Shown in pieces: positions 1 through 23,189 of a stretch of DNA of 23,311 nucleotides. Location: positions 1 through 23,311 of the IMG/VR virus record IMGVR_UViG_3300034279_000230; one strand, given 5' to 3'. Every line of letters starts with the position of its first letter. Position 1 is the first letter of the stretch. This stretch comes from a virus. Position numbers and translations under genes: made by a program. The notes below the pieces were generated by a model, which was given only the letters and a program-made list of their open reading frames with translations, ran no database searches and was not told where the DNA came from.

Positions 1-1950
1 CAAGGCCAGACAATCAACGCGCGGCCCTGCCTGACCATCAACAAGCTGCCGCAACACGTCCGGCAGGTGACGAACGAGCAGCGGCAGAACCGGCCAGCGG
101 GCAAGGTGATCCCCGCCGACGACCGCGCCGACGTCAAGATGGCTGAAATATTCGACGGCATGGTGCGGCACATCGAGTACATCTCGGACGCCGACGTGGC
201 CTACGACACGGCCTGCGATAATCAGGTGACGTACGGGGAAGGTTACATTCGTATCCTGACCGAATACACCCGCGACGACAGCTTCGATCAGGACATCAAG
301 ATCGGGCGCATCCGCAACTCGTTCTCGGTCTACATGGACCCGACGATCCAAGACCCATGTGGTTCCGACGCCCAGTGGTGCTTCATCACTGAGGACATCA
401 CCAAGGACGAGTACGAGCGCCAGTTCCCCGACGCCATGCCGATCTCATCCATCCAGACGCAGGGCGTGGGCGACGCCTCGCTGGCGCAGTGGCTGGCCGA
501 GGACACGGTGCGGATCGCGGAGTATTTCTACTACGAGTACAAGCCGACCACGCTGAACCTGTATCCGGGCAACATCACGGCGTTCGCAAAGACGCCGCAG
601 GACGCCGCCATGCAGCAGTTGTTCGGCAAGCCGCTGCGCAGCCGGCAGGCCGACCGCCGGATCGTCAAGTGGGTCAAGACCAACGGCTACGAGGCTCTGG
701 AGGACCGCGACTGGGCGGGCAAGTACATCCCGGTCGTGCGCGTCGTGGGCAACGAGTGGGAGGTGGACGGCCAACTGTACGTCTCCGGGCTCGTCCGCAA
801 CGCCAAGGACGCCCAGCGCATGTACAACTATTGGGTGAGCCAGGAGGCCGAGATGCTGGCCTTGGCCCCCAAGGCCCCCTTCATTGGCTACGGCGGCCAG
901 TTTGAAGGCTACGAGATGCAATGGAAGACGGCCAACACGAACAACTGGCCGTATCTGGAGGTCAACCCGGACGTTGCTGACGGCGCGGGGCGGCCCATGC
1001 CGCTGCCGCAGCGCGCGGCGCCGCCGCTGGCCCAGACGGGGCTCATTCAAGCCAAGATGGGGGCGTCGGATGACATTAAAGCCACCACTGGTCAATACGA
1101 CTCTAGTCTTGGCGCGCAGTCGAACGAACGCTCCGGTCGAGCTATTCTGGCTCGTGAAAAGCAGGGAGACACGGGCACTTATCATTACGTCGACAATCTC
1201 GCCCGCGCAGTTCGACATGTCACGCGTCAGCTCGTTGATCTCATCCCTAAAATCTACGACACCGAACGGGTAGCGCGGATTGTTGGCCTCGACGGCAACG
1301 TCGATATGGTTAAGATCAACCCGCAGCAGGCCGAGCCGGTCAAGGAAATCAAGGACCAGAACGGCTTCACCATCGAAAAAATCTACAACCCGTCCGTGGG
1401 CGTCTACGACGTCATGGTCACGACCGGGCCGGGCTACATGACCAAGCGCCAGGAGGCGCTGGACGCCATGTCGATGCTGCTCCAGTCCAACCCGGAGCTG
1501 TGGAAGGTGGCGGGCGACCTGTTCATCAAGAACATGGACTGGCCGGGCGCGCAGGAGATGGCCGCACGGTTCGCCAAGATCATCGACCCCAAGATCATGG
1601 AAGGCGAGGACGAGTCGCCCGAGATGCAGGCGGCCAAGATGCAGATGGACGTGATGACGCAGGAACTGAACCGCGTCGTCGGGATGCTGGAGAAGGTCGA
1701 GCAGTCGATGGAAGCGCAGGAGCTTCAGATCAAGGCTTACGACGCCGAAACCAAGCGCATCTCAGCCGTGCAGGCGGGCATGACGCCAGAGCAAATCCAA
1801 GAAATCGTGATGGGCACCATCGCCGCCGCCATCGACACGGGCGATCTGGTGCCCGGCGGATCGGGGCCAATGCGTGAAGAGATGCCGATGATGGCCGAGC
1901 AACCCATGATGGCTGAACAACCGCCGATGGTCGAAGGGATGCCGCAATGA
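1..1950 (+). CDS. P22-like portal protein (5' end outside window)
   Basis: The frame is open from base 1, so the gene starts upstream; 649 residues are visible before TGA, against about 725 for P22 gp1. The portal is the dodecameric ring at the special capsid vertex through which DNA is packaged and ejected. The first visible residues contain the block VTNEQRQNRP, which I know from P22-type portals; the GTG at 67 lies inside this conserved block and is not a likely true start. The core has the long alpha/beta clip and stem region, and the stretch from KATTGQYDSSLGAQSNERSG to about IPKIYD is the best conserved part. The C-terminal 120 residues are helical and Met/Gln-rich, ending in a short MMAEQP tandem repeat, as expected for a barrel/tail extension. 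The stop overlaps the next start (ATGA). Codon use changes sharply between about 1070 and 1300. Confidence 0.93.
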   Translation, partial: QGQTINARPCLTINKLPQHVRQVTNEQRQNRPAGKVIPADDRADVKMAEIFDGMVRHIEYISDADVAYDTACDNQVTYGEGYIRILTEYTRDDSFDQDIKIGRIRNSFSVYMDPTIQDPCGSDAQWCFITEDITKDEYERQFPDAMPISSIQTQGVGDASLAQWLAEDTVRIAEYFYYEYKPTTLNLYPGNITAFAKTPQDAAMQQLFGKPLRSRQADRRIVKWVKTNGYEALEDRDWAGKYIPVVRVVGNEWEVDGQLYVSGLVRNAKDAQRMYNYWVSQEAEMLALAPKAPFIGYGGQFEGYEMQWKTANTNNWPYLEVNPDVADGAGRPMPLPQRAAPPLAQTGLIQAKMGASDDIKATTGQYDSSLGAQSNERSGRAILAREKQGDTGTYHYVDNLARAVRHVTRQLVDLIPKIYDTERVARIVGLDGNVDMVKINPQQAEPVKEIKDQNGFTIEKIYNPSVGVYDVMVTTGPGYMTKRQEALDAMSMLLQSNPELWKVAGDLFIKNMDWPGAQEMAARFAKIIDPKIMEGEDESPEMQAAKMQMDVMTQELNRVVGMLEKVEQSMEAQELQIKAYDAETKRISAVQAGMTPEQIQEIVMGTIAAAIDTGDLVPGGSGPMREEMPMMAEQPMMAEQPPMVEGMPQ

Positions 1951-4267: not shown

Positions 4268-4614
4268 CTGATTATGCACTGAGCGCACCCGATCAGGCGA
4301 CCATGTACGCGGCCTTCACGGCCACAGGCATCATGGACAAGGACGGCAACATCAAGACGCAGGGTCTGTTTGACGACGGGACCGACTGGTGCCTTCTCGA
4401 CTGGGGCGCGCGATCATGGAGCGTCCAGACGGGCGTTGACCCCAAGACCGGGATGCCGATTTTTGTCACCGAGACGGACGGCCTCTACTGGTGCCCACTG
4501 CGTTGGAACGGCGACCACCCGCTGCCTGCGGAACAGCCGGGCGTCACGGTTGAGTGGGCGTCAAACGTTGAAGACCCCGACCCGTACCCGGAAGGTCTGC
4601 CGAGATTTGCCTGA
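4264..4614 (+). CDS. hypothetical phage protein following the spike gene
   Basis: 116 residues starting on the ATGA overlap with the spike gene. I do not recognise the family. The protein is acidic and rich in Trp and aromatic residues (DWCLLDWGARSW, GLYWCPLRWNGDH), with no membrane segment or signal peptide, and has a Pro/Asp-rich C-terminus. The tight coupling to the spike gene suggests a partner, such as a small assembly chaperone or cap of the spike, but nothing in the sequence proves it. It is the last gene before the strong promoter at 4618-4645, so it closes the accessory module. Confidence 0.72.
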   Translation: MTDYALSAPDQATMYAAFTATGIMDKDGNIKTQGLFDDGTDWCLLDWGARSWSVQTGVDPKTGMPIFVTETDGLYWCPLRWNGDHPLPAEQPGVTVEWASNVEDPDPYPEGLPRFA

Positions 4615-4693: not shown

Positions 4694-5455
4694 ATGAACG
4701 ACGATACTTTAGCGGCCTCGACCGCGCCGGAACCGGACGCCACGGCAGCCCCCGTTCCTGAGACGACCACGCCGGAAGGACAAACGACTGACAAGACCTT
4801 CTCCCAAGAAGAGCTTGACGCCATAGTCGGAAAGCGCCTTGCCCGAGAACAGCGTAAGTGGGAACGAGAACAAGCCCAGCGATTGGCAGAAACGCAGGCA
4901 AGAGCGCCTGTAGCACCGCCGGCAGCAGACGATTTTGAGAGCGCCTCAGCCTACGCAGATGCGTTGGCCGACCAGCGGGCTCAAGAGCTTCTGAACAAGC
5001 GGGAAGCAGCCAAAGCGCAAGCTGAATTGCTTGACGCCTACCACGACCGGGAAGAGGAAGCCCGCAGCAAGTACGACGACTTTGAACAGGTCGCGTACAA
5101 TCCCAAGCTCCCTGTAACCGACGCGATGGCGCAGACAATTCAGGCATCCGAGATTGGCCCCGACGTCATCTATTGGCTCGGCTCCAACCCCAAGGAAGCC
5201 GCTCGCATATCCGCTCTCCCTGGCCTCCTGCAAGCGCGAGAGATCGGTAAGATTGAAGCTAAGTTGGCGACCAATCCTCCGGTCAAACGAACATCAACCG
5301 CTCCGGCTCCTATTGCTCCGGTCGCGGCCCGTGCGAGTGGATCGCCTGCTTACGACACGACAGACCCCCGGTCTACCAAGACCATGTCAACGTCGGAGTG
5401 GATTGAAGCCGACCGGCTACGACAGATCAAGAAGCTGGAGTCCCTCAGACGCTAA
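4694..5455 (+). CDS. P22-like scaffolding protein
   Basis: 253 residues (P22 gp8 is about 303). The protein directs coat subunits into a procapsid and leaves before maturation. The N-terminus (residues 1-35) is a disordered Ala/Thr/Pro-rich acidic tail. Residues 35-70 and 85-130 are charged helices of coiled-coil type (SQEELDAIVGKRLAREQRKW, then QAELLDAYHDREEEARSKYD). The C-terminus is basic and helical (WIEADRLRQIKKLESLRR), matching the basic helix-turn-helix with which P22 scaffold binds coat. Position between portal and coat is the canonical one. SD AAGGA precedes the ATG. The last 39 bp are overlapped on the opposite strand by an HNH gene. Confidence 0.85.
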   Translation: MNDDTLAASTAPEPDATAAPVPETTTPEGQTTDKTFSQEELDAIVGKRLAREQRKWEREQAQRLAETQARAPVAPPAADDFESASAYADALADQRAQELLNKREAAKAQAELLDAYHDREEEARSKYDDFEQVAYNPKLPVTDAMAQTIQASEIGPDVIYWLGSNPKEAARISALPGLLQAREIGKIEAKLATNPPVKRTSTAPAPIAPVAARASGSPAYDTTDPRSTKTMSTSEWIEADRLRQIKKLESLRR

Positions 5456-6065: not shown

Positions 6066-7277
6066 ATGGGTAATAGCCTGCTTACAATCGACATGATTAC
6101 ACGCAAGGCTCTCGAAATTCTTGAGAACAACCTTGTGCTGACCCGCACTGTGAACCGTCAGTACGACGACTCCTTTGCGGTTGAGGGCGCCAAGATCGGC
6201 TCCACACTCCGCATCCGCCTCCCCGACCGCGCTCTGGTCACGGACGGCGCTGCCCTTCAGGTTCAGGACGACAACGAGCAGTTCACCACGCTCTCCGTCT
6301 CCAGCCAGAAGCACATCGGCGTCAACTTCACGTCCGCCGAACTCACCATGCAGCTCGACGACTTCGCTGAACGTGTTCTCAAGCCGCGTATCTCGCAGCT
6401 TGCCTCGTCCATCGACGCGGACGTCGCCAACTCGTTCAAGTCGGTCTACAACTCGGTCGGCACGCCCGGCACGACACCCGCAACTTCGCTGGTGTTGCTC
6501 CAAGCGCAGCAGAAGCTGAACGAAAACGCTGCCGTCATGTCGCCCCGCTACGCCACCGTCAACCCCGCCGCTAACGCCGGGCTTGTCGAGGGCCTGAAGG
6601 GCCTCTTCAACCCCACCGACGTTGTCAGCCGCCAGTTCAAGAACGGACTGATGGGCACTGGCGTGCTGGGCTACGAAGAGATCAGCATGTCGCAGTCGAT
6701 CAAGCAGTTCTCGACGGGCACGTTCTCGCGTACCGCTTCGACGACTGTCGGCACGACCATCTCGGCTCAGGGCGCGACGACTGTCGTTCTGTCTCAGGGT
6801 TCCGCGACGACCACGCTCAAGGTCGGTGACGTGTTCACCATCGGCAGCGTGTTCTCCGTTAACCCGCAGACCCGCGAGTCGACCGGCGCCCTCCAGCAGT
6901 TCGTCGTTACCGAAGACACCGCTGGCGTTGCCGGCACGTACACTGTCAAGGTCAGCCCGGCGATCTACACCGCCGCTAACGCCCTTGCCACTGTGGACAC
7001 GTTCCCGCAGTCCGGCGCGGTCGTCACGTTCCTCGGGTCTGCTTCGACGCAGTACCCGCAGAACCTTGTCTACCACAAGGACGCGATCACCTTCGCCACC
7101 GCCGACCTTCTGCTTCCGCAGGGTGTCGATATGGCCTCGCGTCAGGTCCACAACGGCATCTCGCTGCGTGTTGTGCGTCAGTACGACATCAACAACGATA
7201 GACTTCCATGTCGCATCGATGTATTGTACGGTTATGGCGTGATCCGCCCGCAAATGGCCGTTCGTATGTGGGGCTAA
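6066..7277 (+). CDS. P22-like major capsid (coat) protein
   Basis: 403 residues (P22 gp5 is 430). It forms the icosahedral shell with an HK97-type fold. The N-arm is MGNSLLTIDMITRKALEILE. Residues about 60-225 carry the E-loop/P-domain core. A Val/Thr-rich insert at about 225-320 (GATTVVLSQGSATTTLKVGD to GTYTVKVSPAIY) fits the P22 insertion domain. The C-terminus, RIDVLYGYGVIRPQMAVRMW, is the signature I associate with the P22 coat family. GGAG (6054-6057) precedes the ATG. The gene is flanked on both sides by HNH genes. Its last coding bases (about 7190-7245) use A/T-ending and rare codons unlike the rest of the gene. Confidence 0.93.
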   Translation: MGNSLLTIDMITRKALEILENNLVLTRTVNRQYDDSFAVEGAKIGSTLRIRLPDRALVTDGAALQVQDDNEQFTTLSVSSQKHIGVNFTSAELTMQLDDFAERVLKPRISQLASSIDADVANSFKSVYNSVGTPGTTPATSLVLLQAQQKLNENAAVMSPRYATVNPAANAGLVEGLKGLFNPTDVVSRQFKNGLMGTGVLGYEEISMSQSIKQFSTGTFSRTASTTVGTTISAQGATTVVLSQGSATTTLKVGDVFTIGSVFSVNPQTRESTGALQQFVVTEDTAGVAGTYTVKVSPAIYTAANALATVDTFPQSGAVVTFLGSASTQYPQNLVYHKDAITFATADLLLPQGVDMASRQVHNGISLRVVRQYDINNDRLPCRIDVLYGYGVIRPQMAVRMWG

Positions 7278-7284
7278 CTTGAAA
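7278..7284 (+). repeat. left copy of CTTGAAA direct repeat flanking the HNH gene
   Basis: CTTGAAA follows the coat stop (TAA) immediately. The same seven bases follow the HNH stop (TAG) at 7930-7936, so the HNH unit is bracketed by a short direct repeat of the old intergenic sequence. Confidence 0.55.
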
Positions 7285-7307
7285 ACTTGCGTAGTGCAGC
7301 ATTGACG

Positions 7308-7347
7308 TGTTACGCTACCCCATCACTTAAAATGGGGTAGCGTAATG
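7308..7347 (+). promoter_or_regulatory. RNA hairpin sequestering the HNH start codon
   Basis: The arms TTACGCTACCCCAT (7310-7323) and ATGGGGTAGCGTAA (7332-7345) are perfectly complementary over 14 bp with an 8-nt loop. Two G-U pairs (7309/7346, 7308/7347) extend the stem through the whole ATG start codon. The only SD-like element, GGGG at 7334-7337, is in the stem. There is no U-run, so a terminator role is secondary at best. In a read-through coat transcript the HNH start would be hidden, as known for some T4 homing endonuclease genes such as I-TevI. Confidence 0.7.
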
Positions 7348-7929
7348 ACCAAAATTTGCTGCATTAAAGAGTGCGACGCGCCAGTAATAGCTTTGGGGCT
7401 TTGCAACAAGCATTGGAGAAGGAACAAGAAATACGGTTCGCCAGTGGCAGTATCCTCCCACAGCGGCTTATTTCGAGGCCTTTCTGCCGAAGAGCGGTTT
7501 GCACGATCCGTAGTTAAATCTGACGGGTGTTGGGTTTGGAAGGCTAGCAAAGATAAAAACGGCTACGGTATTTTCAGAGGTGAGGTAGGCGGCGTTATGT
7601 TCACAAGGGCACACAGATTTTCATATGCAATGCATACTGGTGATCTGCTTCTGAACATGCAGGCGCTTCACACTTGCGATAACCCTAGCTGCGTAAATCC
7701 AGATCATTTGTTCTCGGGCACAAATGCCGATAATATGCGCGACAAAGTGCAAAAAGGTCGGACTCACATCGCCGCCGGAGAACGTAATGGCCACGCTATC
7801 CTCACAGAACGGCAAGTTCGGCGCATTCTTCGGGACCCTAGGCCCCACGCAGAAATCGCAACGCAGTACAACGTAGCAGCCTCTACGATTGGCAGCATAA
7901 AACAACGCTATTCGTGGAAACATCTTTAG
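7345..7929 (+). CDS. HNH endonuclease with N-terminal zinc-finger-like motif
   Basis: 194 residues. The N-terminus has a Cys/His cluster (Cys5, Cys6, Cys10, Cys20, His23), a zinc-finger-like module often fused to phage HNH proteins. The HNH core spans about 88-140: RAHRFSYAMHTGDL, then HTCDNPSCVNPDHLFSGTNA with His109, His121 and Asn127/Asn130, followed by DNMRDKVQKGR. The C-terminus (147-190) includes NGHAILTERQVRRIL and HAEIATQYNVAASTIGSI, a helix-turn-helix. It is not inside an intron and the coat gene before it is complete. The gene is clearly more AT-rich than its neighbours, a sign of transfer. Translation is probably restrained by the hairpin at 7308-7347. Confidence 0.9.
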   Translation: MTKICCIKECDAPVIALGLCNKHWRRNKKYGSPVAVSSHSGLFRGLSAEERFARSVVKSDGCWVWKASKDKNGYGIFRGEVGGVMFTRAHRFSYAMHTGDLLLNMQALHTCDNPSCVNPDHLFSGTNADNMRDKVQKGRTHIAAGERNGHAILTERQVRRILRDPRPHAEIATQYNVAASTIGSIKQRYSWKHL

Positions 7930-7936
7930 CTTGAAA
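7930..7936 (+). repeat. right copy of CTTGAAA direct repeat
   Basis: CTTGAAA directly after the HNH stop codon, identical to 7278-7284 after the coat stop. It runs into GGAT, giving AAAGGA, the SD of the gene at 7948, so this copy probably keeps the original intergenic context. Confidence 0.55.
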
Positions 7937-9079: not shown

Positions 9080-9764
9080 CGGAGCTTTGCGGCTTCTGGG
9101 CGTGTTGGCGGAAGGCGAGACGCCGTCCGCTGAAACGTCTCAGGACGCCCTGTCTGCAATGAACCAGATGATCGACTCGTGGAATACCGAGCGGCTGGCG
9201 GTCTATTCGACTATCGACCAAGTGTTGACGTGGCCCGCAACGCAGCGGTCGCGTACGCTGGGGCCAACCGGCGACCTTGTCGGCGTGCGCCCGATCCTTG
9301 TCGAGGACAGCACGTATTTCCGCGACGCCTCGACCGGCATCTCGTACGGCATCAAGCTCATCAACCAGCAGCAGTACAACGGCATCGCGGTCAAGACCGT
9401 CACCAGCACCTACCCGCAGGTCATGTTTGTCAACATGACTTACCCGGACATCGAACTGTACGTCTATCCGGTCCCGTTCAAGGATTTGGAGTTTCACTTC
9501 ATCTCGGTCCAGCCGCTGACCGAGCCCGCCAATCTGGCGACGACGCTGGCGTTCCCGCCAGGCTACCTGCGCGCGTTTCGCTACAACTTGGCGTGCGAAA
9601 TGGCGCCAGAGTTCGGCGTTAACCCGTCGCCGCAGGTCCAGCGCATCGCAATGACGTCCAAGCGCAACATCAAGCGCATCAACAACCCCGACGACATCAT
9701 GGCGATCCCGTACTCGATCACCGGCACACGTCAGCGGTTTAATATTTTCGCGGGCAACTACTAA
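9054..9764 (+). CDS. P22 gp4-like head-to-tail adaptor (head completion protein)
   Basis: 236 residues, longer than P22 gp4 (166). In P22, gp4 binds below the portal after packaging, seals the head and forms the platform for gp10. The helical N-terminal half has the recognisable pattern TAGEQINGALRLLGVLAEGE, then QDALSAMNQMIDSWNTERLA. The middle has NMTYPDIELYVYPVPFKDLE, and the end has RAFRYNLACEMAPEFGVNPS, a typical closing block. The order gp4-like, gp10-like is that of P22. Its TAA overlaps the next ATG by one base. Confidence 0.87.
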   Translation: MTTAGEQINGALRLLGVLAEGETPSAETSQDALSAMNQMIDSWNTERLAVYSTIDQVLTWPATQRSRTLGPTGDLVGVRPILVEDSTYFRDASTGISYGIKLINQQQYNGIAVKTVTSTYPQVMFVNMTYPDIELYVYPVPFKDLEFHFISVQPLTEPANLATTLAFPPGYLRAFRYNLACEMAPEFGVNPSPQVQRIAMTSKRNIKRINNPDDIMAIPYSITGTRQRFNIFAGNY

Positions 9765-11197
9765 TGAAGAGCCCGATTTTAGGTTCCTTCAGCGCCGTCC
9801 GCAGCCCAAACGCGGCGGACAACCAGCTCATCAACCTGTTCCCGGAGATGATCCCGGAGGCGGGCAAGGAGCCCGCGTTCCTGCAACGCGCGCCCGGACT
9901 GCGCTTTCTGGCCTACGTCGGCAACGGACCCGTGCGCGGGCTGTGGACGTTTGGCGACTACGGATACGCCGTCTCGGGCGACAAGCTCTACCAGATCGAC
10001 AACATGTGGGTCGTCACCGAAAAGGGCACGGTTGCGGGGTCCGGCCCCGTGTCGATGGTGGACAACGGCACGCAGCTCTTCATTGCTGCGGGCGCCACCG
10101 GCTACATCTACAACGCTGGCACTGACGTGTTCGCGCAAATCACGGACCCGGACTTCCCCGGCGCGTCCACGGTCGGCTTCATCGACGGCTATTTCGTCTT
10201 CACCGAGCCCAACAGCCAAAAGTTCTGGGTGACCGAGCTGCTCGACGGCACGTCCGTCGATCCGCTGGACTTCGCCAGCGCGGAGGGCTCGCCCGACGAC
10301 CTTGTGTCGCTGATCGTCGATCACCGCGAAGTCTGGCTGTTCGGCCAGACGTCCGTCGAGGTCTGGTACAACGCCGGGCTGCCCGACTTCCCGCTGTCGC
10401 GCATCCAAGGCGCGTTTAACGAGATCGGTTGCGCAGCGCGCGCCTCGGTCGCCAAGCTGGACAACGGCGTGTTCTGGCTGGGCGCGGACGCTCGCGGTCG
10501 CGGTATCGTTTACCGCTCGCAAGGCTACAACGGCCAGCGCATCTCCACGCACGCGGTCGAGTGGCAAATTCAACAGTACGCCGACATCTCGGACGCCACC
10601 GCCTACACCTACCAGCAGGACGGCCATTCGTTCTACGTGCTCAACTTCCCGTCCGCCGACATCACATGGGTCTACGACGTGGCGACGCTGTCGTGGCACC
10701 AGCGCGCCGGCTGGCTGAACAATCGCTACACCCGCCACCGGGGCGACTGCCAGATGGCCTACAACGCCGAGATCGTGGTGGGCGATTATCTCGCCGGGGC
10801 GATCTACGCCTACGATCCGACCGTCTACACGGAGGCGGGCACCGTCCAGAAGTGGTTGCGGTCGTGGCGGGCGCTGCCCACCGGAACCAACAACCTGTCG
10901 CGCACGACGCACCACGCCCTGCAACTCGACTGCGAGAGCGGCGTCGGGCTTGACGGCGAGCAGCAGGGCACCGACCCGCAGGTCATGCTGCGCTGGTCCG
11001 ACGACGGCGGTCATACGTGGTCGAACGAGCACTGGAAGTCGATGGGGCGCATCGGTGAGACGGGCGCCCGCGTCATCTGGCGGCGGCTCGGCATGACGAT
11101 GAAGCTGCGCGACCGCGTCTACGAAGTCTCGGGGACTGACCCGGTCAAGATTGCCATCATGGGTGCGGAGCTGATTATGGACCGTACCAATGCCTGA
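9764..11197 (+). CDS. P22 gp10-like packaged-DNA stabilization / tail hub protein
   Basis: 477 residues, nearly the same length as P22 gp10 (472). It attaches to the gp4-like ring and carries the tail fibres or spikes; without it packaged DNA leaks. The N-terminus SPILGSFSAVRSPNAADN, followed by LINLFPE and LQRAPGLRFLAYVGNGPVRG, is the hallmark of the Phage_stabilise family. The body consists of repeated beta strands of propeller type, with W and G at regular spacing (GYAVSGDKLYQIDNMWV, DHREVWLFGQTSVEVWYN, DNGVFWLGADARGRGIVY). It overlaps the next gene by 8 bp (ATGCCTGA). Confidence 0.9.
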   Translation: MKSPILGSFSAVRSPNAADNQLINLFPEMIPEAGKEPAFLQRAPGLRFLAYVGNGPVRGLWTFGDYGYAVSGDKLYQIDNMWVVTEKGTVAGSGPVSMVDNGTQLFIAAGATGYIYNAGTDVFAQITDPDFPGASTVGFIDGYFVFTEPNSQKFWVTELLDGTSVDPLDFASAEGSPDDLVSLIVDHREVWLFGQTSVEVWYNAGLPDFPLSRIQGAFNEIGCAARASVAKLDNGVFWLGADARGRGIVYRSQGYNGQRISTHAVEWQIQQYADISDATAYTYQQDGHSFYVLNFPSADITWVYDVATLSWHQRAGWLNNRYTRHRGDCQMAYNAEIVVGDYLAGAIYAYDPTVYTEAGTVQKWLRSWRALPTGTNNLSRTTHHALQLDCESGVGLDGEQQGTDPQVMLRWSDDGGHTWSNEHWKSMGRIGETGARVIWRRLGMTMKLRDRVYEVSGTDPVKIAIMGAELIMDRTNA

Positions 11198-11768
11198 GAA
11201 CATCACGCAAATCCCGGCGGCGCGCGTCACCATCGCGGAAGAGCCGACGCCGTACCCGTCGCGTCCGTGGTATCGGTACTTCTACAACCTCTTCGCCATT
11301 TTGGGCAGCGGGTCGCTGCGCAACGGCGCGTTTCACAGCGAGCAGACGCAGACGGCGGCGGCCATCAACACCGGCTACGCCATGACGTTCAACAAGACGG
11401 ACCTGACCCAAGGCGTCTACATCGGCACGCCTAACTCGCGCGTCTACGTGGACCGCCCCGGCGCGTACAACTTCCAGTTCTCGGCGCAGTTTCACAGCAC
11501 CAACGCCTCATCAAAGGACATCTACGTTTGGGCCGACATCAACGGCACGGCGGTCCCGCAGTCGGCTACCAAGCTCACGATGAAGGGTTCTGGCGAATCA
11601 TATTTGGCGGCGTGGAACTTCGTCCTGCGCATGAACACGGGCGACTATTTCCGGCTCATGTGGGCGACTACTAACACGAACGTCTCAATTCTGGCGGAAG
11701 CCGCCACGGCCTTTTCCCCGGCCATCCCTTCTGTTATCCTGACTGCCGCAGCAAACATAGGTGAATAA
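11190..11768 (+). CDS. jelly-roll-type tail-region protein
   Basis: 192 residues. A short N-terminal arm with an aromatic anchor (YPSRPWYRYFYNLFAILGSG) is followed by a C1q/TNF-like jelly roll: FHSEQTQTAAAINTGYAMTF, then PGAYNFQFSAQFHST, DIYVWADINGTAVPQSAT, AAWNFVLRMNTGDYFRLMW and NVSILA. I recall this beta fold as common between gp10-like and fibre genes in podoviruses. It may form a trimeric collar or fibre adaptor; that role is inferred. It is coupled to both neighbours (8-bp overlap upstream, 1-bp overlap downstream). Confidence 0.78.
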   Translation: MPENITQIPAARVTIAEEPTPYPSRPWYRYFYNLFAILGSGSLRNGAFHSEQTQTAAAINTGYAMTFNKTDLTQGVYIGTPNSRVYVDRPGAYNFQFSAQFHSTNASSKDIYVWADINGTAVPQSATKLTMKGSGESYLAAWNFVLRMNTGDYFRLMWATTNTNVSILAEAATAFSPAIPSVILTAAANIGE

Positions 11769-12970
11769 TGGCCGTTCTCACACCCTCACCTAAGATGCAG
11801 TTCGAAAGTGCGGCTGGCGTGCCGCTGTCGGGCGGCAAGGTGTACACCTACGCGGCGGGCACGACCACGCCGCAGGCGACCTTCACGGACTACACGGGCG
11901 CCACGCCCAACGCCAACCCGATCATCCTCGACTCGCGCGGCGAGGCGGCGATCTGGCTCGGCTCGGCGTCCTACAAGTTTAAACTAACCGACGCCAACGA
12001 CGTCGAAATCTGGACCGTCGATTACATCTCGGCTCCCACGTCCGGCGTCTCGCCGGTCCTGTCCGGCAACGTCGTCATCGACAGCGACACGCCCGGCGTG
12101 GCGCTCAAGATCACCCAGACCGGCACGGGCGCGGTCTTGCGCGTGCAGGACAGCGCCGACCCCGACGTCACACCGTTCATCATCGACAACGCTGGCAACG
12201 TCGGTATTGGCACTGCCACACCCGCCGCACCGCTGGATGTGACCGGCGCTGCGCGGCTTGGCTCTCTGACGTTGGTAACGACGCCGCTTGGCGTCGCCAG
12301 CGGCGGCACCGGGCTGGCCACACTGACGGCCAACAACGTCCTGCTTGGCAACGGCGCGTCCGCCCCTACCTTCGTGGCGCCGGGCACGGCCGGTAACTTG
12401 CTGACCAGCAACGGCACGACATGGCAATCGACCGCCGCAACGGTTGAGATACCTTCACAGACGGGCAACGCGGGCAAGGTGCTGGGGACCGATGGCACGA
12501 CTGTCTCGTGGGGCTTTAGCCTTGTCGCTGGTACGGCTCAGACGCCGACAACGACAAACGCCGATTTCACTGGTATTCCTTCATGGGTGCGGCGCGTCAC
12601 AGTAGCATTTTCAAATCTTTCTACAAACGCTTCTACGGCGGTCACGTTGCGCCTTGGGACGGGCGGCGTCTTTGCGACTTCCGGCTACCTTTGCGACATA
12701 TGGAATGGCGTCGCAGGTAACACTTCAACAACTGACTTTCTGCTGGATATTTCCGGTCAAACGGCTGCAACTGCGCGCAACGGGTCTGTCACGCTGCATA
12801 ACGTCTCAGGCAATACTTGGGTAGCGGTAGGATTCGCTTCTCGGCCGACTCAAGTCATCAACAGTTTGACAGGAACTGTCACTCTTGGAGGTGTGCTTGA
12901 CAGCGTTCGGTTGCTTTCGGGCGGCGGTAATTTGTTTGACGGCGGCACCGTCAACGTCTTCTGGGAGTAG
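11768..12970 (+). CDS. tail fibre protein
   Basis: 400 residues. The N-terminal 85 residues (LTPSPKMQFESAAGVPLSGG, KVYTYAAGTTTPQATF, SRGEAAIWLGSASYKFKL) are a widespread phage fibre head-binding domain that docks to the tail hub. The middle (about 140-235) has shaft-type repeats, GNVGIGTATPAAPLDVTGAA and GVASGGTGLATLTANNVLLG. The C-terminal 130 residues (PSWVRRVTVAFSNLSTNAS to DSVRLLSGGGNLFDGG) form a beta domain often seen at fibre tips, a likely receptor-binding part. There is no obvious depolymerase or chaperone domain, so it is a simple fibre rather than a P22-type tailspike. The distal part is less GC-rich, as expected for a host-range domain under exchange. Confidence 0.85.
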   Translation: MAVLTPSPKMQFESAAGVPLSGGKVYTYAAGTTTPQATFTDYTGATPNANPIILDSRGEAAIWLGSASYKFKLTDANDVEIWTVDYISAPTSGVSPVLSGNVVIDSDTPGVALKITQTGTGAVLRVQDSADPDVTPFIIDNAGNVGIGTATPAAPLDVTGAARLGSLTLVTTPLGVASGGTGLATLTANNVLLGNGASAPTFVAPGTAGNLLTSNGTTWQSTAATVEIPSQTGNAGKVLGTDGTTVSWGFSLVAGTAQTPTTTNADFTGIPSWVRRVTVAFSNLSTNASTAVTLRLGTGGVFATSGYLCDIWNGVAGNTSTTDFLLDISGQTAATARNGSVTLHNVSGNTWVAVGFASRPTQVINSLTGTVTLGGVLDSVRLLSGGGNLFDGGTVNVFWE

Positions 12971-12973
12971 CAG

Positions 12974-13780
12974 GTGACGCTTGCCGATCAGGTCGAAGCC
13001 GCCTTTCTGGAGCAGCCGCAGGCTGACTGCCCGGTCACGCACCGCTTTGGGCCGGGCATCTACATCCGCGAGGTGCTGCTGCCGCGCGGCGCGTACGTCG
13101 TCGGCCACGCCCACAAGACGGTGCACCTCAACATCATGCTGACCGGACGGCTGGGGCTGTTCGATGACGAGGGCAACGAGACGATCCTGTCCGCGCCGCA
13201 GACGTTCGTCGCGGGCATGGGCCGCAAGGTCGCCTACATCTACGAGGACGTCATCTGGCAGAATGTCCACGCGACCACTGAGACGGACGTGGAGACGCTG
13301 GAGGACACCTACCTCGACAAGAGCGCCATCTGGCTCGACCACGCCCGCCGTGCGTCGCTGGTGACCGAAAACTATTCTGAGGACAACGAGGACTTCGATG
13401 CGGCTCTGGCCGACCTGCGCCTCGACCCGCTGACTGTGCGCCTGGCTGCCGAACGGTCGGACGACGTGGCGCCATTTCCGCCGGGCGACTACAAGGTCAT
13501 GCCCGGCCCCTCTAAGATCAACGGCAAGGGCCTATTCGCCACGGGCGTCATCGACGTCAACGAGCTGATCGCCCCGGCCCGCCTCGACGGGCAGCGCACG
13601 CCAGCCGGGCGCTACATCAACCACAGCCGGACACCCAACGCTGACGCGGCGATGACCGAGACGGGCGACATCTATCTGTTCGCTCTGCGGCCAATCGCCG
13701 GGTGCCGTGGCGGGCAGCTTGGCGAAGAGATCACAATAGACTATCGTCGGTTTCTGAACCTGACGTGCAGGAGTAATTAA
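12974..13780 (+). CDS. cupin-SET fusion, putative protein-lysine methyltransferase
   Basis: 268 residues. The GTG start is supported by GGGAG 6 nt upstream. Residues 15-125 form a cupin-like barrel: DCPVTHRFGPGIYIREVLLP, then the metal-type motif GHAHKTVHLNIMLTG (His45, His47, His51) and a later VHATTETD (His99). This half resembles a cupin protein common in phages and of unknown role. Residues 172-260 carry the hallmarks of a SET domain: KINGKGLFAT, then RYINHSRTPNA (Asn216-His217, the SAM-binding NH motif) and GEEITIDYR (Tyr257, catalytic position). Pre- and post-SET parts are absent, so the domain is minimal. It sits between fibre and ejection genes, so a virion protein may be the substrate; a host target is equally possible. 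Activity is not shown. Confidence 0.8.
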   Translation: MTLADQVEAAFLEQPQADCPVTHRFGPGIYIREVLLPRGAYVVGHAHKTVHLNIMLTGRLGLFDDEGNETILSAPQTFVAGMGRKVAYIYEDVIWQNVHATTETDVETLEDTYLDKSAIWLDHARRASLVTENYSEDNEDFDAALADLRLDPLTVRLAAERSDDVAPFPPGDYKVMPGPSKINGKGLFATGVIDVNELIAPARLDGQRTPAGRYINHSRTPNADAAMTETGDIYLFALRPIAGCRGGQLGEEITIDYRRFLNLTCRSN

Positions 13781-13781
13781 C

Positions 13782-14570
13782 ATGGCGGGTATTGCAGCAG
13801 CAGCAGCCATCGGTGCGGGCGGGTCCATTCTCGGCGGCCTGCTCGGCGGCAGTTCGGCCAAGAAAGCCGCCAAGATACAGGCGGCTGCGGCCCGCGAAGG
13901 TATTGCAGCGCAGAAGGAGATGTTCGAGCGCCAAGTCGCACTGCAAGAGCCGTTCCGCCAAGCGGGCCTCACGTCGCAGAACCAGCTCATGACGCTGCTC
14001 GGCCTGAAGGGCGGCGACGAGGCGTCGGGCGAGTACGGCTCGGCGTCCAAGGCGTTCGGCATGGATCAGTTCAACGCCGACCCCGGCTACGCCTTCCGCT
14101 TGTCGGAGGGCATGAAGGCGCTGGAGCGGTCGGCTGCGGCGCGCGGCGGCCTGCTGTCGGGCCAGACCCTGAAGGGCATCAACCGCTACGGGCAGGACAT
14201 GGGCTCGCAAGAGTACCAGAACGCGTTCAACCGCTACCAAGTGGAGCGCAACGCGCGCCTGAACCCGCTCCAGAGCCTCATGGGCGCCGGCCAGACGGCC
14301 ACGAACCAGCTCAGCGGGGCGGCGGGGCAGCTCGGGACGGGGCTGGCGCAGGGCTACGGCAACTTGGGCCAAGCGCAGGCGTCGGGCTACGTCGGCATGG
14401 GGCAGGCGGCGATGGGCGCGACGCAGGGCATCAGCAACCAGGTGCAAGGCTACTACAACAACCAGTTCATGAACAACATGCTGCAGTCGCGTAACCGTCC
14501 TACGGGGACTTTTGACTCGGCTATGTTCCAAGCGGAATACACCCCCACGCCCAACTACAATTTCGGTTGA
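13782..14570 (+). CDS. ejection protein, P22 gp7-like (DNA transfer protein)
   Basis: 262 residues (P22 gp7 is 229). First of three ejection proteins that leave the head with the DNA and build a conduit through the cell envelope. The N-terminus has a Gly-zipper hydrophobic stretch (AAAAIGAGGSILGGLLGG), then a long Ala-rich helix (KAAKIQAAAAREGIAAQKEM). The block EPFRQAGLTSQNQLMTLLGL and the region FNADPGYAFRLSEGMKALER with SAAARGGLLSG are signatures I know from phage DNA transfer proteins. The C-terminal third is Gly/Gln-rich with regular ALGQ/NLGQ-type repeats and looks helical. SD AGGAG lies 8 nt before the ATG. Confidence 0.83.
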   Translation: MAGIAAAAAIGAGGSILGGLLGGSSAKKAAKIQAAAAREGIAAQKEMFERQVALQEPFRQAGLTSQNQLMTLLGLKGGDEASGEYGSASKAFGMDQFNADPGYAFRLSEGMKALERSAAARGGLLSGQTLKGINRYGQDMGSQEYQNAFNRYQVERNARLNPLQSLMGAGQTATNQLSGAAGQLGTGLAQGYGNLGQAQASGYVGMGQAAMGATQGISNQVQGYYNNQFMNNMLQSRNRPTGTFDSAMFQAEYTPTPNYNFG

Positions 14571-19703: not shown

Positions 19704-19962
19704 TCCGTAGTTCCTCGCTCGCTATATCTGAAATAATGCACTTGTTGTGGGTGGCGTCGTCTACCAAACCCTGAATACGGGGGGCGGCGATAAGTGATCG
19801 AAGTGCACTCGTAAGCGCAAGACGCCGCTCAAGAGAAGCAAAAGATACGCGTTGCGCCGTTGGCAAGTCTTGCCACGCGGGGGCGTCCTCGACCGCGTTC
19901 CGCCACTGGGCGTATAGTGTAGTGCCGGGGCGCCGCGTCCGCTGGCTCAATTCATCAGTCAT
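19696..19962 (-). CDS. hypothetical protein with a helicase-like C-terminal tail
   Basis: 88 residues; I do not recognise the family. The body is helical (TLYAQWRNAVEDAPAWQDLP, then SLERRLALTSALRSLIAAPR). The last residues, HNKCIISDIASEELRNV, closely match the end of the helicase encoded just upstream (HDKRTLSDIAIEELRND): 11 of 17 positions are identical. The same DNA carries the SD and start of the following gene in both places. So the C-terminal tail probably came with a duplicated gene junction rather than by selection for helicase function. It starts 8 bp inside the helicase gene, after GAGGAG. Confidence 0.65.
   Translation of the reverse strand: MTDELSQRTRRPGTTLYAQWRNAVEDAPAWQDLPTAQRVSFASLERRLALTSALRSLIAAPRIQGLVDDATHNKCIISDIASEELRNV
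19701..19750 (-). repeat. gene-junction repeat, copy 2
   Basis: About 50 bp encoding HNKCIISDIASEELRN and ending at the ATG of the 70-residue protein. The core TCAGATATAGCGA...GAGGAA...AATG matches 19960-20010 with scattered substitutions. It holds the SD for the following gene. Confidence 0.7.
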
Positions 19963-21340
19963 TTCTCAACTCCTCAATCGCTATGTCTGATAGGGTGCGC
20001 TTGTCGTGCAGCGCCTGCCACATCCGTTCGTCGATAGTTTTATTACAGATCAGGACATAACACCAGACGTCCTGTGTCTGGCCGCCGCGATGCAGCCGCC
20101 CGACCGTCTGCTCGTACAGCTCCAGCGACCACGGCAGCGACAGAAACACGATCTTGTTACCGTTCGGGTTACCTTGGAGATTGAGCCCGTGGCCGGCGGA
20201 CTTGGGGTGCAACAGCAGCAGACGCGTCTTGCCCGCGTTCCAGCGCGACACGGCGTCGGGCTCGTCGAGCGTCCGGGCGTGCGGGTAGCGGCGCTGCAAC
20301 TCCTCCAGCTCGGCATTGAAGTTGTAGATGACAATGGTGTCGGCGTGCTGGTTCTCCTCCAGCAGCTCGTCCAGCCGGTCAAACTTCTCGGACGACACCC
20401 AGAGCGTGTCTTGTTTCACGTGAAACCGCCCCGGCGCGGCGCTCGCGGTCGAGGTGCTGTCGTAGATGAACCCGGTCGCCAGTTGCTGGAGCTTCATCGA
20501 CACGGCGGCGGCGCTGGGCGCCGCGATCTCGGCCCCGGCCAGCTCCAGCACGAATTTGCGCTTCATGTCGTTGTAGGGCTTGGGGTCCACCAGATCGCAG
20601 CGCAGCTCGACCGTGTGCAACGGCGGCAGCTTGTCGGCGTACTCGCCCGGCTCCAGCACGAACGTGGCGGGCTTGATGGCCGCCATGACCTGCTCCAGCG
20701 CGCCGCGACGCGGCTGCCACTCGCCAAAGTCGCGGTTGACGCAGACGAAGTACTTCTGGAGGAACGCGCCCTTGGCGCGGCCCAGCAGGTTCTGGTCCAC
20801 GATCTTGCACTGGCCGAACACGTCCTCCAAACCGTTGGAGGTGAACGAGCCCGTCAGCCCCCACCGAATCGGCACGTCCTTGATGAGCGCCTCCAGCGCC
20901 TTGAAGCGTTTGCCCGCCGGGTTCTTGAGCCGCGTCAGCTCGTCGAAGACGACTACGTTAAAACCTATGTCGGCTAACGATTTGCCTTTCAGCTTACCCG
21001 CCAGCCACTGTATGCCGTCGTAATTCAGTACGACGACGTTCGCGCCGTTCTCGGCTGGCGGTCTGAAGGCTGCCGCCCGCTGTTTGGGTGACCCCACCGC
21101 TACGGCGACGCTGAGGTACTTGCCCCACTTATCAATTTCCTGTGACCAGACATCCGTGCAGACGCGCTTGGGGGCCAGCACCAGCGCGCGGTGCAGGTGT
21201 CCGTCCTCCCACAGCGCATCGAGCGCCGTTATGGTGATGGCCGTCTTGCCCGCGCCCACGGGCGCTAGGACGAGCGCGCGGTCGCGGGCGAAGATGAAGT
21301 CGGCGGCGTCGTCCTGGTACGGTCTAAGTTTCAGTGTCAA
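19955..21340 (-). CDS. SNF2-type DEAD/DEAH-box helicase
   Basis: 461 residues. The start is TTG, chosen because GGAG lies 6 nt upstream and homology to helicases begins at once (LKLRPYQDDAADFIF, the Q-like motif). Walker A is APVGAGKTAI (26-35), motif Ia VLAPKRVC, motif II VVFDELTRLKN (DELT at 133-136, in place of DEAH), motif III GLTGSF (161-166), motif V GHGLNLQG and motif VI QTVGRLHRGGQ (about 411-421, Arg fingers). This set is that of SNF2-like translocases in many phages, which act on dsDNA in replication or recombination. Context with a VRR-NUC nuclease fits that. It overlaps the end of the methyltransferase gene by 17 bp. Confidence 0.9.
   Translation of the reverse strand: MTLKLRPYQDDAADFIFARDRALVLAPVGAGKTAITITALDALWEDGHLHRALVLAPKRVCTDVWSQEIDKWGKYLSVAVAVGSPKQRAAAFRPPAENGANVVVLNYDGIQWLAGKLKGKSLADIGFNVVVFDELTRLKNPAGKRFKALEALIKDVPIRWGLTGSFTSNGLEDVFGQCKIVDQNLLGRAKGAFLQKYFVCVNRDFGEWQPRRGALEQVMAAIKPATFVLEPGEYADKLPPLHTVELRCDLVDPKPYNDMKRKFVLELAGAEIAAPSAAAVSMKLQQLATGFIYDSTSTASAAPGRFHVKQDTLWVSSEKFDRLDELLEENQHADTIVIYNFNAELEELQRRYPHARTLDEPDAVSRWNAGKTRLLLLHPKSAGHGLNLQGNPNGNKIVFLSLPWSLELYEQTVGRLHRGGQTQDVWCYVLICNKTIDERMWQALHDKRTLSDIAIEELRND
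19960..20010 (-). repeat. gene-junction repeat, copy 1
   Basis: About 50 bp encoding HDKRTLSDIAIEELRN at the end of the helicase and ending at the ATG of the 88-residue protein. Core TCAGACATAGCGA...GAGGAG...AATG. Direct repeat of 19701-19750. Confidence 0.7.
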
Positions 21341-22346
21341 GGAACGCTCCGATCACTTCTGCGGCCGCCTGCGGGACGATGGCATTGCCGTAGGCGCGCA
21401 GGCGTCCCACTCGGGCGGGAACCCCATGAGCCAGCAAACAAACTCCGGGTTTAACGCGCCGGGCTTTTCCGTCTGCTCCTGCAATCCAGTCACATTCTCC
21501 CCAAGCCCCAGCGCGTCGGTTGCTTCCGTCGTGAGAGATTTCTGCGAGCCCTTCGCATCCCCCATCCTGCGCTGGTAGCCAAGCCGCGCTTCGTGCGCCA
21601 TCGGCGTTGGCCACATTGCCAAAGACACTGTGTCGTTCAAATTCGACATCCCGTGGCCCTGCGCTTTCTTCGCAGCAATGTACTCCGGCGTGTGCGCCGG
21701 AAAGTGATCTCTCGCCGTTGGCGTCGGCCACATCGCCTTCGCTACCTGCGAAAGATCGACCTGTATCTTCTTGCCCTTGTGGTAAGGGGTATTGCCCCGC
21801 CACTCGTCCGCGTGCGCTATCGAACGCCCGCCGTTCGGCAGTGTTGGCGTCGGCCACAAACCAGAGGCGATCTCTTCGATGGGGCGCATCGACGGCACAA
21901 GCCGGAACAACGGCCGCCCCGCAGGCGTAGCCGACGCCTTCCAAGTCAGCACACACTCCGTCGAGCCAATCCTTTCCAACCGCTGCCGCAACCTGTTCTC
22001 CCATGAGGACAGGGGGCCGACAGGCGCGGATAAGCTCAAAGAAGACGGGCCAGAGGTGGCGCTCGTCTTCCTGCGCTTTACCTTTTCCGGCGACGGAGAA
22101 GGGCTGGCAGGGGGCGCTGCCCGTCCACAGAGGCCGTTCGTCGGGCCAGCCAGCAAGGCGGGCGGCGTAGGCCCAGCCGCCGATCCCGGCGAAGAAGTGG
22201 CACTGGGCGTACCCGCGCAAGTCCTCTGGAGCCACGTCGCAAATAGACCGTTCATCTACATCCCCCTCCGGTATCAGCCCCTTGGCTATCAGGTTGCGCA
22301 GCCATTGGGCTGCGTAGGCGTCGATTTCGTTATAGTACGCATCCAC
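21324..22346 (-). CDS. C5-cytosine DNA methyltransferase (Dcm type)
   Basis: 340 residues from GTG at 22346, chosen because GAGGGG lies 8 nt upstream and the family block VDAYYNEIDAYAAQWLRNLI starts there; ATG at 22376 would overlap the VRR-NUC gene by 88 bp. Motif I is CHFFAGIGGW (49-58), motif IV SAPCQPFS (77-84, catalytic Cys80), motif VI GEQV (116-119, usual ENV altered to EQV), motif VIII RRDRLWFVA (157-165) and motif X RLRAYGNAIVPQAAAEVI near the end. It would transfer a methyl group to cytosine C5, probably to protect phage DNA from restriction. Between motifs VIII and X (about 21400-21870) this frame has many A-ending codons, whereas the +1 frame there looks coding; see the next entry. 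Confidence 0.85.
   Translation of the reverse strand: MDAYYNEIDAYAAQWLRNLIAKGLIPEGDVDERSICDVAPEDLRGYAQCHFFAGIGGWAYAARLAGWPDERPLWTGSAPCQPFSVAGKGKAQEDERHLWPVFFELIRACRPPVLMGEQVAAAVGKDWLDGVCADLEGVGYACGAAVVPACAVDAPHRRDRLWFVADANTAERRAFDSARGRVAGQYPLPQGQEDTGRSFAGSEGDVADANGERSLSGAHAGVHCCEESAGPRDVEFERHSVFGNVANADGARSAAWLPAQDGGCEGLAEISHDGSNRRAGAWGECDWIAGADGKARRVKPGVCLLAHGVPARVGRLRAYGNAIVPQAAAEVIGAFLDTET
21353..22255 (-). CDS. overprinted 300-codon ORF inside the methyltransferase gene
   Basis: Same strand, +1 frame relative to the methyltransferase. ATG at 22255 has GGAGGGG 7 nt upstream. The product has ENRLRQRLERIGSTECVLTW, KASATPAGRPLFRLVPS, three spaced WPTP units (GLWPTPTLPN, AMWPTPTARD, AMWPTPMAHE) and a closing LNPEFVCWLMGFPPEWDACA. 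I remember this pattern from many phage and prophage proteins deposited as hypothetical or as cytosine methyltransferases, so it is not unique to this window. From about 22010 leftward its codons end mainly in G/C, like true genes here, while the methyltransferase frame does not. It could be a real overlapping gene, a frameshift product that supplies a target-recognition part, or a conserved shadow frame. The first 60 codons look less gene-like. Confidence 0.5.
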   Translation of the reverse strand: MNGLFATWLQRTCAGTPSATSSPGSAAGPTPPALLAGPTNGLCGRAAPPASPSPSPEKVKRRKTSATSGPSSLSLSAPVGPLSSWENRLRQRLERIGSTECVLTWKASATPAGRPLFRLVPSMRPIEEIASGLWPTPTLPNGGRSIAHADEWRGNTPYHKGKKIQVDLSQVAKAMWPTPTARDHFPAHTPEYIAAKKAQGHGMSNLNDTVSLAMWPTPMAHEARLGYQRRMGDAKGSQKSLTTEATDALGLGENVTGLQEQTEKPGALNPEFVCWLMGFPPEWDACAPTAMPSSRRRPQK

Positions 22347-22600
22347 TCGTCGATCCCCTCTGTTGTCCACAGACATGCGTAGTTCTGGTTCAGCCGCTCC
22401 ATCTCCCGCGCGAACAGGCGCTGGAGGTCGGACAGGCGGCCACCCTTGGTCTTCAGCTCTACAAACCACGTCGAGCCGTCCGGCAGGCAGGCGATTCGGT
22501 CGCTGACGCCGCGCTGGTTCGGGCTGTGGAACTTGAACGAGCGCCCGCCCATCCGTTCCACGGCCCAAACGAAATATCGTTCGATTTCGCTCTCACGCAT
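22289..22600 (-). CDS. VRR-NUC domain nuclease
   Basis: 103 residues, the whole protein being one VRR-NUC domain (PD-(D/E)XK fold). Visible motifs are ESEIERYFVWAVERMGG at the start, KFHSPNQRGVSDRIACLPDG (Gly31, Asp34), WFVELKTKGGRLSDLQ (Glu48, Lys50, Gln60), with the D...ExK...Q pattern complete. Such proteins cut branched or flapped DNA and often sit next to SNF2 helicases in phage genomes, as here. It starts 8 bp inside the Mom-like gene (ATGCGTGA) and its end overlaps the methyltransferase start by 58 bp. Confidence 0.9.
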   Translation of the reverse strand: MRESEIERYFVWAVERMGGRSFKFHSPNQRGVSDRIACLPDGSTWFVELKTKGGRLSDLQRLFAREMERLNQNYACLWTTEGIDEWMRTITKSTPTQPNGCAT

Positions 22601-23189
22601 GGGCGTTTACCGGCGGCGGGTTAGTTTTCCAGTTTAGTTTAGGCCAAGCGCATAATTTCTCTAGCTGTTTACGATCCCGCCGTGTTCCCGTTGTCGTCCA
22701 GTATTTCACTTTTGGCTTACGTCGAACCTTGTGGGTAAACCCGTTTCGGAAAGCGTCGCGCGAATGTTTGCCTGGGGCCACGTAATCAAAACGCGGCGTT
22801 TTGCGCTCCATATCGGTCCAGCCGCTATAGTGAAAGTTGGCGGCGCGGTAGACGTATCCGGCGTGGCCTTCTGCCGTGTCGGCGTAACTGAGAATGATGC
22901 GCGGCGGCAAGAGCGCCATGCAGCGAGACAGAAACCACGTCTCTGTGTTTCGTGGGGCGGCGTCATCGACCCACAGGCGGTTAAGCTCTAGGACTATTTG
23001 AGGGGCGGTGGGGCACGCGCCGATGACCATGTGGCGGCTGGCGGGCACACCAAAAGTCGCAACACCGCAAAGGTTGTCAGCGTGGAATAGTCCAAAGGCG
23101 AACGACATCGGCGGGCGGCGGCGCAGATAGTGGCGCTCCACAACAATACGGGCGGCGTCAATTTTTGATATGGGTTGGACGTGTCGCAT
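22593..23189 (-). CDS. Mom-like DNA adenine modification protein
   Basis: 198 residues. The sequence carries the blocks of the phage Mu Mom family (GNAT-like fold): VVERHYLRRRPP (16-27), CGVATFGVPASR (41-52), ELNRLWVDDAAPRNTETWFL (68-87) and SYADTAEGHAGYVYRAANFH (101-120), then SGW. Mu Mom converts adenine in DNA to a methylcarbamoyl form that blocks many restriction enzymes. The C-terminal 60 residues are strongly basic (GKHSRDAFRNGFTHKVRRKP), consistent with DNA binding. No com-like translational activator gene precedes it. It is first gene of the leftward operon; the SD is weak (AGAG) and the start is very close to a possible promoter. Confidence 0.88.
   Translation of the reverse strand: MRHVQPISKIDAARIVVERHYLRRRPPMSFAFGLFHADNLCGVATFGVPASRHMVIGACPTAPQIVLELNRLWVDDAAPRNTETWFLSRCMALLPPRIILSYADTAEGHAGYVYRAANFHYSGWTDMERKTPRFDYVAPGKHSRDAFRNGFTHKVRRKPKVKYWTTTGTRRDRKQLEKLCAWPKLNWKTNPPPVNAHA

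Follow-up and report, generated by a model that had tools for sequence, protein, structure and literature searches.

The window (the whole 23,311-base virus record analyzed here) opens with a gene for a P22-like portal protein that is cut at the window edge (1..1950, + strand; PF16510, E=1.6e-161), followed by genes for a scaffold (4694-5455; Pfam/PHROGs), a P22-like coat protein (6066..7277, +; PF11651, E=3e-39), a head-closure Hc3 or P22 gp10-like protein (9764..11197, +; phrog_578, E=1.2e-136) and, by reading, a fiber-like protein (11768..12970, +; phrog_26190, with no function given). Beyond these lies the gene studied here, an open reading frame at 12974..13780 (+) that starts with GTG and encodes a 268-aa cupin-SET protein of the phrog_34170 family (ORF, Pfam, PHROGs, AlphaFold2 and structural alignment). 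Its constant downstream neighbor encodes a gp7-like outer-membrane DNA-ejection protein (13782..14570, +; phrog_598, E=4.1e-40). The start codon is supported by two relatives (L006 and L008), which carry ATG at the same codon. A sequence-only reading had placed the gene between fiber and ejection genes; phrog_598 bears out the ejection side, and the fiber side is a reading of phrog_26190.

The protein comprises three parts: a cupin-fold domain (RmlC-type jelly-roll, ~residues 13-118, 13010..13327, +; PHROGs, AF2 and Foldseek) homologous to phrog_12032, a helical linker (~residues 119-167, 13328..13474, +; helices 118-128, 135-147 and 152-159 in AF2), and a minimal SET domain (~residues 168-262, 13475..13759, +) with GxG at 184-186, NHS at 216-218 and GEEITIDY at 250-257, little I-SET, and the family loop as GCRGG. 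The cupin motif spans G44-G58 (GHAHKTVHLNIMLTG), and the SET motifs are GKGLFAT (G184-T190), RYINHSRTPNA (R213-A223) and GEEITIDYR (G250-R258, with Y257 inside), so that the gene boundaries, length and motifs reported from the letters alone were all reproduced.

Profile searches assigned both halves to known groups. Pfam SET (PF00856) matched residues 211-257 (E=2.9e-7; 31.3 bits against a curated cut-off of 22.4), confined to the C-terminal portion of the model (positions 61-104 of 105), while phrog_34170, which has no function assigned in PHROGs, matched essentially the full length (residues 7-262, E=1.3e-68). The cupin half was matched by phrog_12032 (E=1.2e-30) and phrog_24280, named 'short tail fiber protein' and 'tail fiber adhesin'; as far as seen, these names are annotation only. 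No Pfam cupin family matched the N-terminal part, phmmer with the single window sequence against PDB returned chance matches only, and NCBIfam gave no match for the four family members queried. The PADLOC defense and anti-defense families had no match for the cupin-SET protein either, and membership in such a family was ruled out on this basis.

An AlphaFold2 model built on an alignment of 47 sequences had a mean pLDDT of 91.4 and a pTM of 0.87. Within it, residues 168-258 aligned with the MLL1 SET domain (7u5v_A; VIA-align, Z 12.3, rmsd 1.9, 80 aligned, 36% identity) and residues 172-257 with vSET (3kma_A; Z 11.2, rmsd 1.9, 80 aligned, 34% identity), and Foldseek placed the N-terminal part with solved cupins (3lag_B, TM (target) 0.69; 2fqp_A, 0.67; E about 4e-4). 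In BFVD, Foldseek matched phage proteins, among them one of Sphaerotilus phage vB_SnaP-R1 and one from an uncultured phage with the annotation 'SET domain containing protein'. Structure prediction and fold search thus recovered both folds, and the structural alignment implies a predicted SET pseudoknot and SAM pocket. Pfam, PHROGs and AF2 agree with the fusion in a phage structural module, with NH and Y intact, that the sequence-only reading had proposed; two refinements are that the cupin HxH is not a family-conserved metal site and that the SET domain lacks most of I-SET.

SET is the kind of domain by which animals and plants methylate lysines of proteins. Among known SET domains, those of MLL/KMT2 and EZH2 gave the strongest matches in both structure and profile (Z 12.3; E=4e-9), sharing S-x-I-x-G-x-GLF, R-x-x-NHS-x-PN and GEE-x-x-x-DY with the phage domain, but the latter lacks the I-SET region and in many phages has a GCxGG loop before GEEIT (8 of 10 compared sequences; absent from L013 and L021). 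A profile of 52 family members aligned with MLL1 as two separate blocks (188-215 of the profile on chain 16-43, and 225-278 on 88-138), between which ~44 MLL1 residues (chain 44-87) face ~10 phage positions, leaving some 35 residues of the I-SET insert missing. We take the absent MLL1 segment to be the I-SET region, which in known SET enzymes forms part of the substrate groove. The phage SET is a minimal variant without the canonical I-SET-bearing lysine methyltransferase architecture. A small viral SET has a precedent in vSET (PBCV-1 A612L, PDB 3kma/1n3j; profile match E=1.7e-6), a 119-aa single-domain H3K27 methyltransferase of an algal virus acting on histone H3, whereas the phage domain has fewer residues, forms a fusion with a cupin and comes from phages whose known hosts are bacteria.

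A tblastn search of the window protein against 50,697 phage records matched 56, of which 8 (5 different phages by reading of the list) covered at least 80% of the protein, namely zth2-2, two Manatee Spring genomes (one apparently deposited twice), Rhodoferax phage P26218 and Pseudoalteromonas phage PH1; the other 48 matched the cupin part. One phage record already names its cupin-SET copy after vSET. Scanning IMG/VR with an alignment of the fusion gave at least 554 confirmed among at least 599 pattern matches, and all 77 newly fetched loci among the 80 taken from the confirmed matches encoded cupin-SET. The protein belongs to an unnamed phage family (phrog_34170) present in hundreds of IMG/VR contigs and, among cultured phages, in P26218 and PH1. 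That viruses and uncultured phages can carry SET proteins is already known; within the literature searched, the cupin-SET family, the minimal form of its SET and the way it alternates with other proteins in a single pre-ejection slot appear to be new, and a search covering open-licence PMC papers found no paper on a phage cupin-SET protein.

The two domains also occur apart. Ten loci in GTDB genomes comprised seven fusions, one cupin only, one SET only and one pair of overlapping, unfused cupin and SET genes (L111). Seeds taken from cupin-only proteins yielded 80 loci (70 cupin only, 7 fused, 2 cupin with a separate SET, 1 cupin plus fusion), and seeds taken from stand-alone SET proteins yielded 75 newly fetched loci (72 fused, 1 split and 2 SET only, L336 and L337, the latter beginning at a contig edge), the split locus lying on the same contig as one from the cupin-seeded scan (L240/L287). 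On this contig and in L244 the cupin gene is followed by gp7-like and then by two small genes, after which comes a SET gene of its own, which in L240 encodes 142 aa and precedes a PF12236 head-tail connector gene and in L244 is cut by the contig end. Comparison of a fused locus (L324) with the unfused one of Shewanella phage X14 (L024), which have the cupin and a GDLC tail in common, showed SET as an in-frame insert of ~110 residues between the two. A cupin tree of 122 rows requires at least 12 changes of state (fused, split or none) by parsimony (shuffled mean ~35); 50 of its 119 inner branches are poorly supported, and the starred branches force three changes for fused and four for none. This pattern indicates that SET has been gained or lost repeatedly on the same cupin scaffold.

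At a further locus (L014:6001-6573) the first 88 bases are 93% identical to the window gene and then give way to a different cupin-only sequence, a recombination junction at which a cupin seems to have replaced cupin-SET. In the P22-like module of L336, a DUF6445-family gene (3243-4465; E=9.4e-11; phrog_1644 'minor coat protein') overlaps the SET-only gene and sits before it in the cupin's place, with an HxD...H pattern by eye like that of 2OG-Fe(II) oxygenases. Stand-alone SET proteins with a further C-terminal region were found in Rhodocyclales and Paraburkholderia (L110:7989-8546 and L111:7872-8594), at loci that also hold integrase-like ORFs by eye.

Conservation was counted over the letters present in 127 distinct SET-bearing proteins out of 177 ORFs. 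To avoid picking relatives by their SET motifs, the cupin part alone was used as a query, and SET was present in 77 of the 80 loci found in this way, the remaining three running off the contig end. The SET residues were essentially invariant (G184 and G186, 126/126 each; R208 and R213, 125/125 each; N216, 125/125; H217, 124/125; Y257, 123/123). Relatives that keep the cupin and lose NH and Y, the case named beforehand as fatal to a SET assignment, did not appear among the 127; one relative (L103) has NQ in place of NH. The cupin positions behaved differently. At positions 45, 47, 51 and 99, which we take to be the metal ligands of cupin motifs 1 and 2, His was mostly kept at H45 (117/125) and H51 (118/125), whereas position 47 was His in 57/125 (Q in 64, Y in 4) and position 99 was His in 11/125 and Y, F or N in 114/125 (Y in 92). 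Two of the four usual ligand positions are thus not kept in the family, and the reading of the cupin as an active metalloenzyme was rejected on this ground. Median dN/dS was 0.050 for the cupin and 0.072 for SET (up to 400 pairs, which are non-independent), a pattern that indicates purifying selection on both domains.

The position of the gene is also constant. Proteins encoded downstream of cupin-SET genes have a small/hydrophobic N-terminus like MSGVATAIVGSAVIGG in 157 of 160 distinct cases, and their start overlaps the upstream stop in 90/160 and lies within 30 nt of it in 69/160. Two loci (L074 and L075) have a 921- or 896-aa protein in place of gp7-like, with a similar, hydrophobic glycine-rich start and a tail-tip-like appearance by eye. 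The same position is held in P22 by gp14 (DUF2824, 'head morphogenesis'), directly before gp7, and in T7 by gp13 (PF11090, 'probable scaffold'), before gp14; neither has a sequence link to cupin-SET. The review PMC8954989 groups P22 gp7 and T7 gp14 as outer-membrane ejection proteins.

We further scanned from the gp7-like side, taking the 80 loci nearest to the gp7-like protein of P26218, and found directly upstream a cupin only (24), cupin-SET (11), another protein (39) or no ORF (6). Among the other proteins of at least 100 aa (n = 37), 24 matched the phrog_1249 acetyltransferase, 15 Acetyltransf_1, 5 Sulfotransfer_3 weakly (best E 2.8e-4, and below the Pfam curated cut-off in both checked) and 1 phrog_651, the P22 gp14 family. 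GNAT acetyltransferases of podophage ejection modules are likewise a group-transfer family in the slot of cupin-SET, with a different fold and chemistry and with an enzymatic role that is putative in both. In the cultured Pseudomonas phage PfAn1 a putative acetyltransferase lies directly before a protein annotated as controlling DNA ejection, but in Salmonella phage SE29, a counter-example, a related acetyltransferase lies away from the slot. An acetyltransferase-like (L366) and a sulfotransferase-like (L403) slot protein had no match in cultured phages, and two other acetyltransferase-like ones did. P22 gp14 aligned weakly with the slot acetyltransferase profile (hhalign probability 6%, P 0.006; T7 gp13 0.15%), as did two slot proteins (L366 and L409) with DUF2824 (E 0.2). 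Five sulfotransferase-like slot proteins of 355 aa (L378, L403, L412, L423 and L425) group with the acetyltransferase-like ones by BLAST, and may perhaps be two-enzyme fusions before the ejection protein.

Closely related phages differ within the gene itself. Against L027 (the same contig as L005) the window is mostly 90-100% alike up to 13373, 65-71% at 13374-13873, 81% to 13973 and 92-99% until ~14373. The block 13374-13973, with a boundary near 13374, covers the linker and SET and runs into the start of the gp7-like gene, and against both L027 and L006 it is 64-81% alike inside and mostly >90% outside, as in an allele exchange. It was not counted as SET-gp7 co-variation, and hence not as evidence on the substrate, because the alleles are few and these phages are mosaic elsewhere (fiber end, gp7 end).

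Three features together, namely invariant residues for SAM binding and catalysis, a cupin metal site that has been lost and a constant position in the gene order, favor an active methyltransferase that a non-enzymatic cupin scaffold holds at the ejection module. Since hundreds of related phages keep cupin-SET beside ejection genes, it probably modifies a protein of particle building or host entry. Our tentative reading, which we hold at a little below even probability, is that of a protein-lysine methyltransferase of minimal SET type, held by the cupin at the assembly and ejection module, that modifies a phage protein there. Under this reading the cupin-fold module would be part of the section for ejection proteins in P22-like podophages and in some T7-like ones, and cupin-SET would be made late, together with the structural genes. 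The cupin, by oligomerizing or binding a morphogenesis partner, would hold SET near the assembling ejection or tail proteins, and SET would then methylate at least one lysine in a phage protein that is produced or acts at that site. Such methylation could tune how the ejection machine assembles, how stable it is or how it passes the membrane, or shield it from host proteases or defenses. The split forms (L240/L287, L244 and L111), in which SET stays within the same module, were counted in favor of an ejection-module role, as was the presence of acetyltransferase-like proteins in this slot in other phages, and the missing I-SET counts against a methyltransferase. The earlier suggestion that the cupin serves as a positioning unit gained indirect support, as the cupin stands alone in the slot (70/80 loci) and SET is an in-frame insert.

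Neighboring structural genes do not prove a structural substrate, and the adjacent gp7-like protein, the obvious candidate, fails in some lineages. Four of 166 complete downstream proteins (L081, L085, L086 and L284) contain no lysine although SET is intact in these phages, and 14/160 have none in the first 60 residues; a gp7-like protein as universal lysine substrate was therefore ruled out, and the reading does not require it as a target. Likelier ones would be tail proteins or the larger proteins of the ejection set (gp20- or gp16-like). PMC13288928 reports methylated lysines and arginines on the structural proteins of phages of Cellulophaga, free virions included, which indicates that such marks do occur on phage structural proteins, and these phages are not known to encode methyltransferases. 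For marks reported there with no phage enzyme to explain them, cupin-SET is a widespread phage-encoded candidate. The question is directly testable, as two phages that carry cupin-SET are in culture with their hosts known (Rhodoferax sp. IMCC26218 for P26218 and Pseudoalteromonas marina mano4 for PH1); a text search for mass spectrometry in PMC9011153 (Shewanella X14) and PMC4657236 (P26218) found nothing. If cupin-SET does act on ejection proteins, chemical modification would join the building of the DNA-injection channel in short-tailed phages, and enzymology would gain a minimal SET scaffold.

Alternatively, a putatively packaged cupin-SET could enter the host with the DNA and methylate a host protein, such as a nucleoid protein, RNA polymerase or a defense protein. 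PBCV-1 offers a parallel, since according to the review PMC7019647 it packages vSET, which tri-methylates H3K27. The location among ejection genes, the block-wise swapping of SET alleles between near-identical phages and the repeated gain and loss expected of a host-directed function point the same way, but no ejection signal was identified and the cupin alone also fills the slot, and we regard delivery into the host as plausible but unlikely. The missing I-SET, together with a Pfam match confined to the end of the SET model, is also consistent with a non-catalytic SET, one that binds SAM or acts on the cupin simply as a module for structure or protein contacts. Against this, GxG, N, H and Y are essentially invariant in 127 distinct proteins, more than a purely structural role would call for, although one relative (L103) has NQ for NH, and we consider a loss of catalysis improbable.

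Cupin relatives carry the annotations 'short tail fiber protein' and 'tail fiber adhesin', which raises the further reading of a receptor-binding unit, with SET as a passenger acting on the fiber or the cell surface. The literature searched contained no experiment behind these names, the slot directly precedes the gp7-like gene, as P22 gp14 and T7 gp13 do, rather than lying with receptor-binding genes, and SAM would be scarce outside the cell, so that a role in adsorption seems quite improbable. That the cupin is a metal-dependent oxygenase removing or altering the mark set by SET, as H45, H47, H51 and H99 at the usual ligand places of the window protein might suggest, is scarcely credible, given that positions 47 and 99 are not kept even among SET carriers.

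The methyltransferase reading may also be placed in a wider and more doubtful setting, one that we think unlikely on present evidence. Podophages may keep a 'modifier slot' directly before the first (outer-membrane) ejection gene, occupied in some lineages by a cupin-SET methyltransferase, in others by a cupin scaffold alone or by a protein resembling acetyltransferases, at times joined to a sulfotransferase-like part, and the enzymes of this slot would modify DNA-ejection proteins before packaging; cupin-SET would be the methylating version, with a SET smaller than vSET. Methylation is not essential to the slot, since the fetched loci of most cupin-only relatives lack SET, a point that also counts against the methyltransferase reading. 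No description of a virion-maturation layer of slot enzymes was found in the literature searched.

Elsewhere in the window, a homing-endonuclease-like ORF (7345-7929, +; PADLOC HEase, E=5.6e-5) directly follows the coat gene, and the alignment to L027 skips from 7278 to 7934, as if that phage were without the insert. On the opposite strand, PADLOC matches point to a SNF2-type helicase-like protein at 19955-21340 (-) and to a protein like DNA cytosine methylases at 21324-22568 (-). The same strand encodes a Mom-like DNA modification protein (22593-23189, -; PF25680, E=5.7e-34; phrog_1384, E=9.1e-39), which suggests that the phage DNA may carry a modified base.
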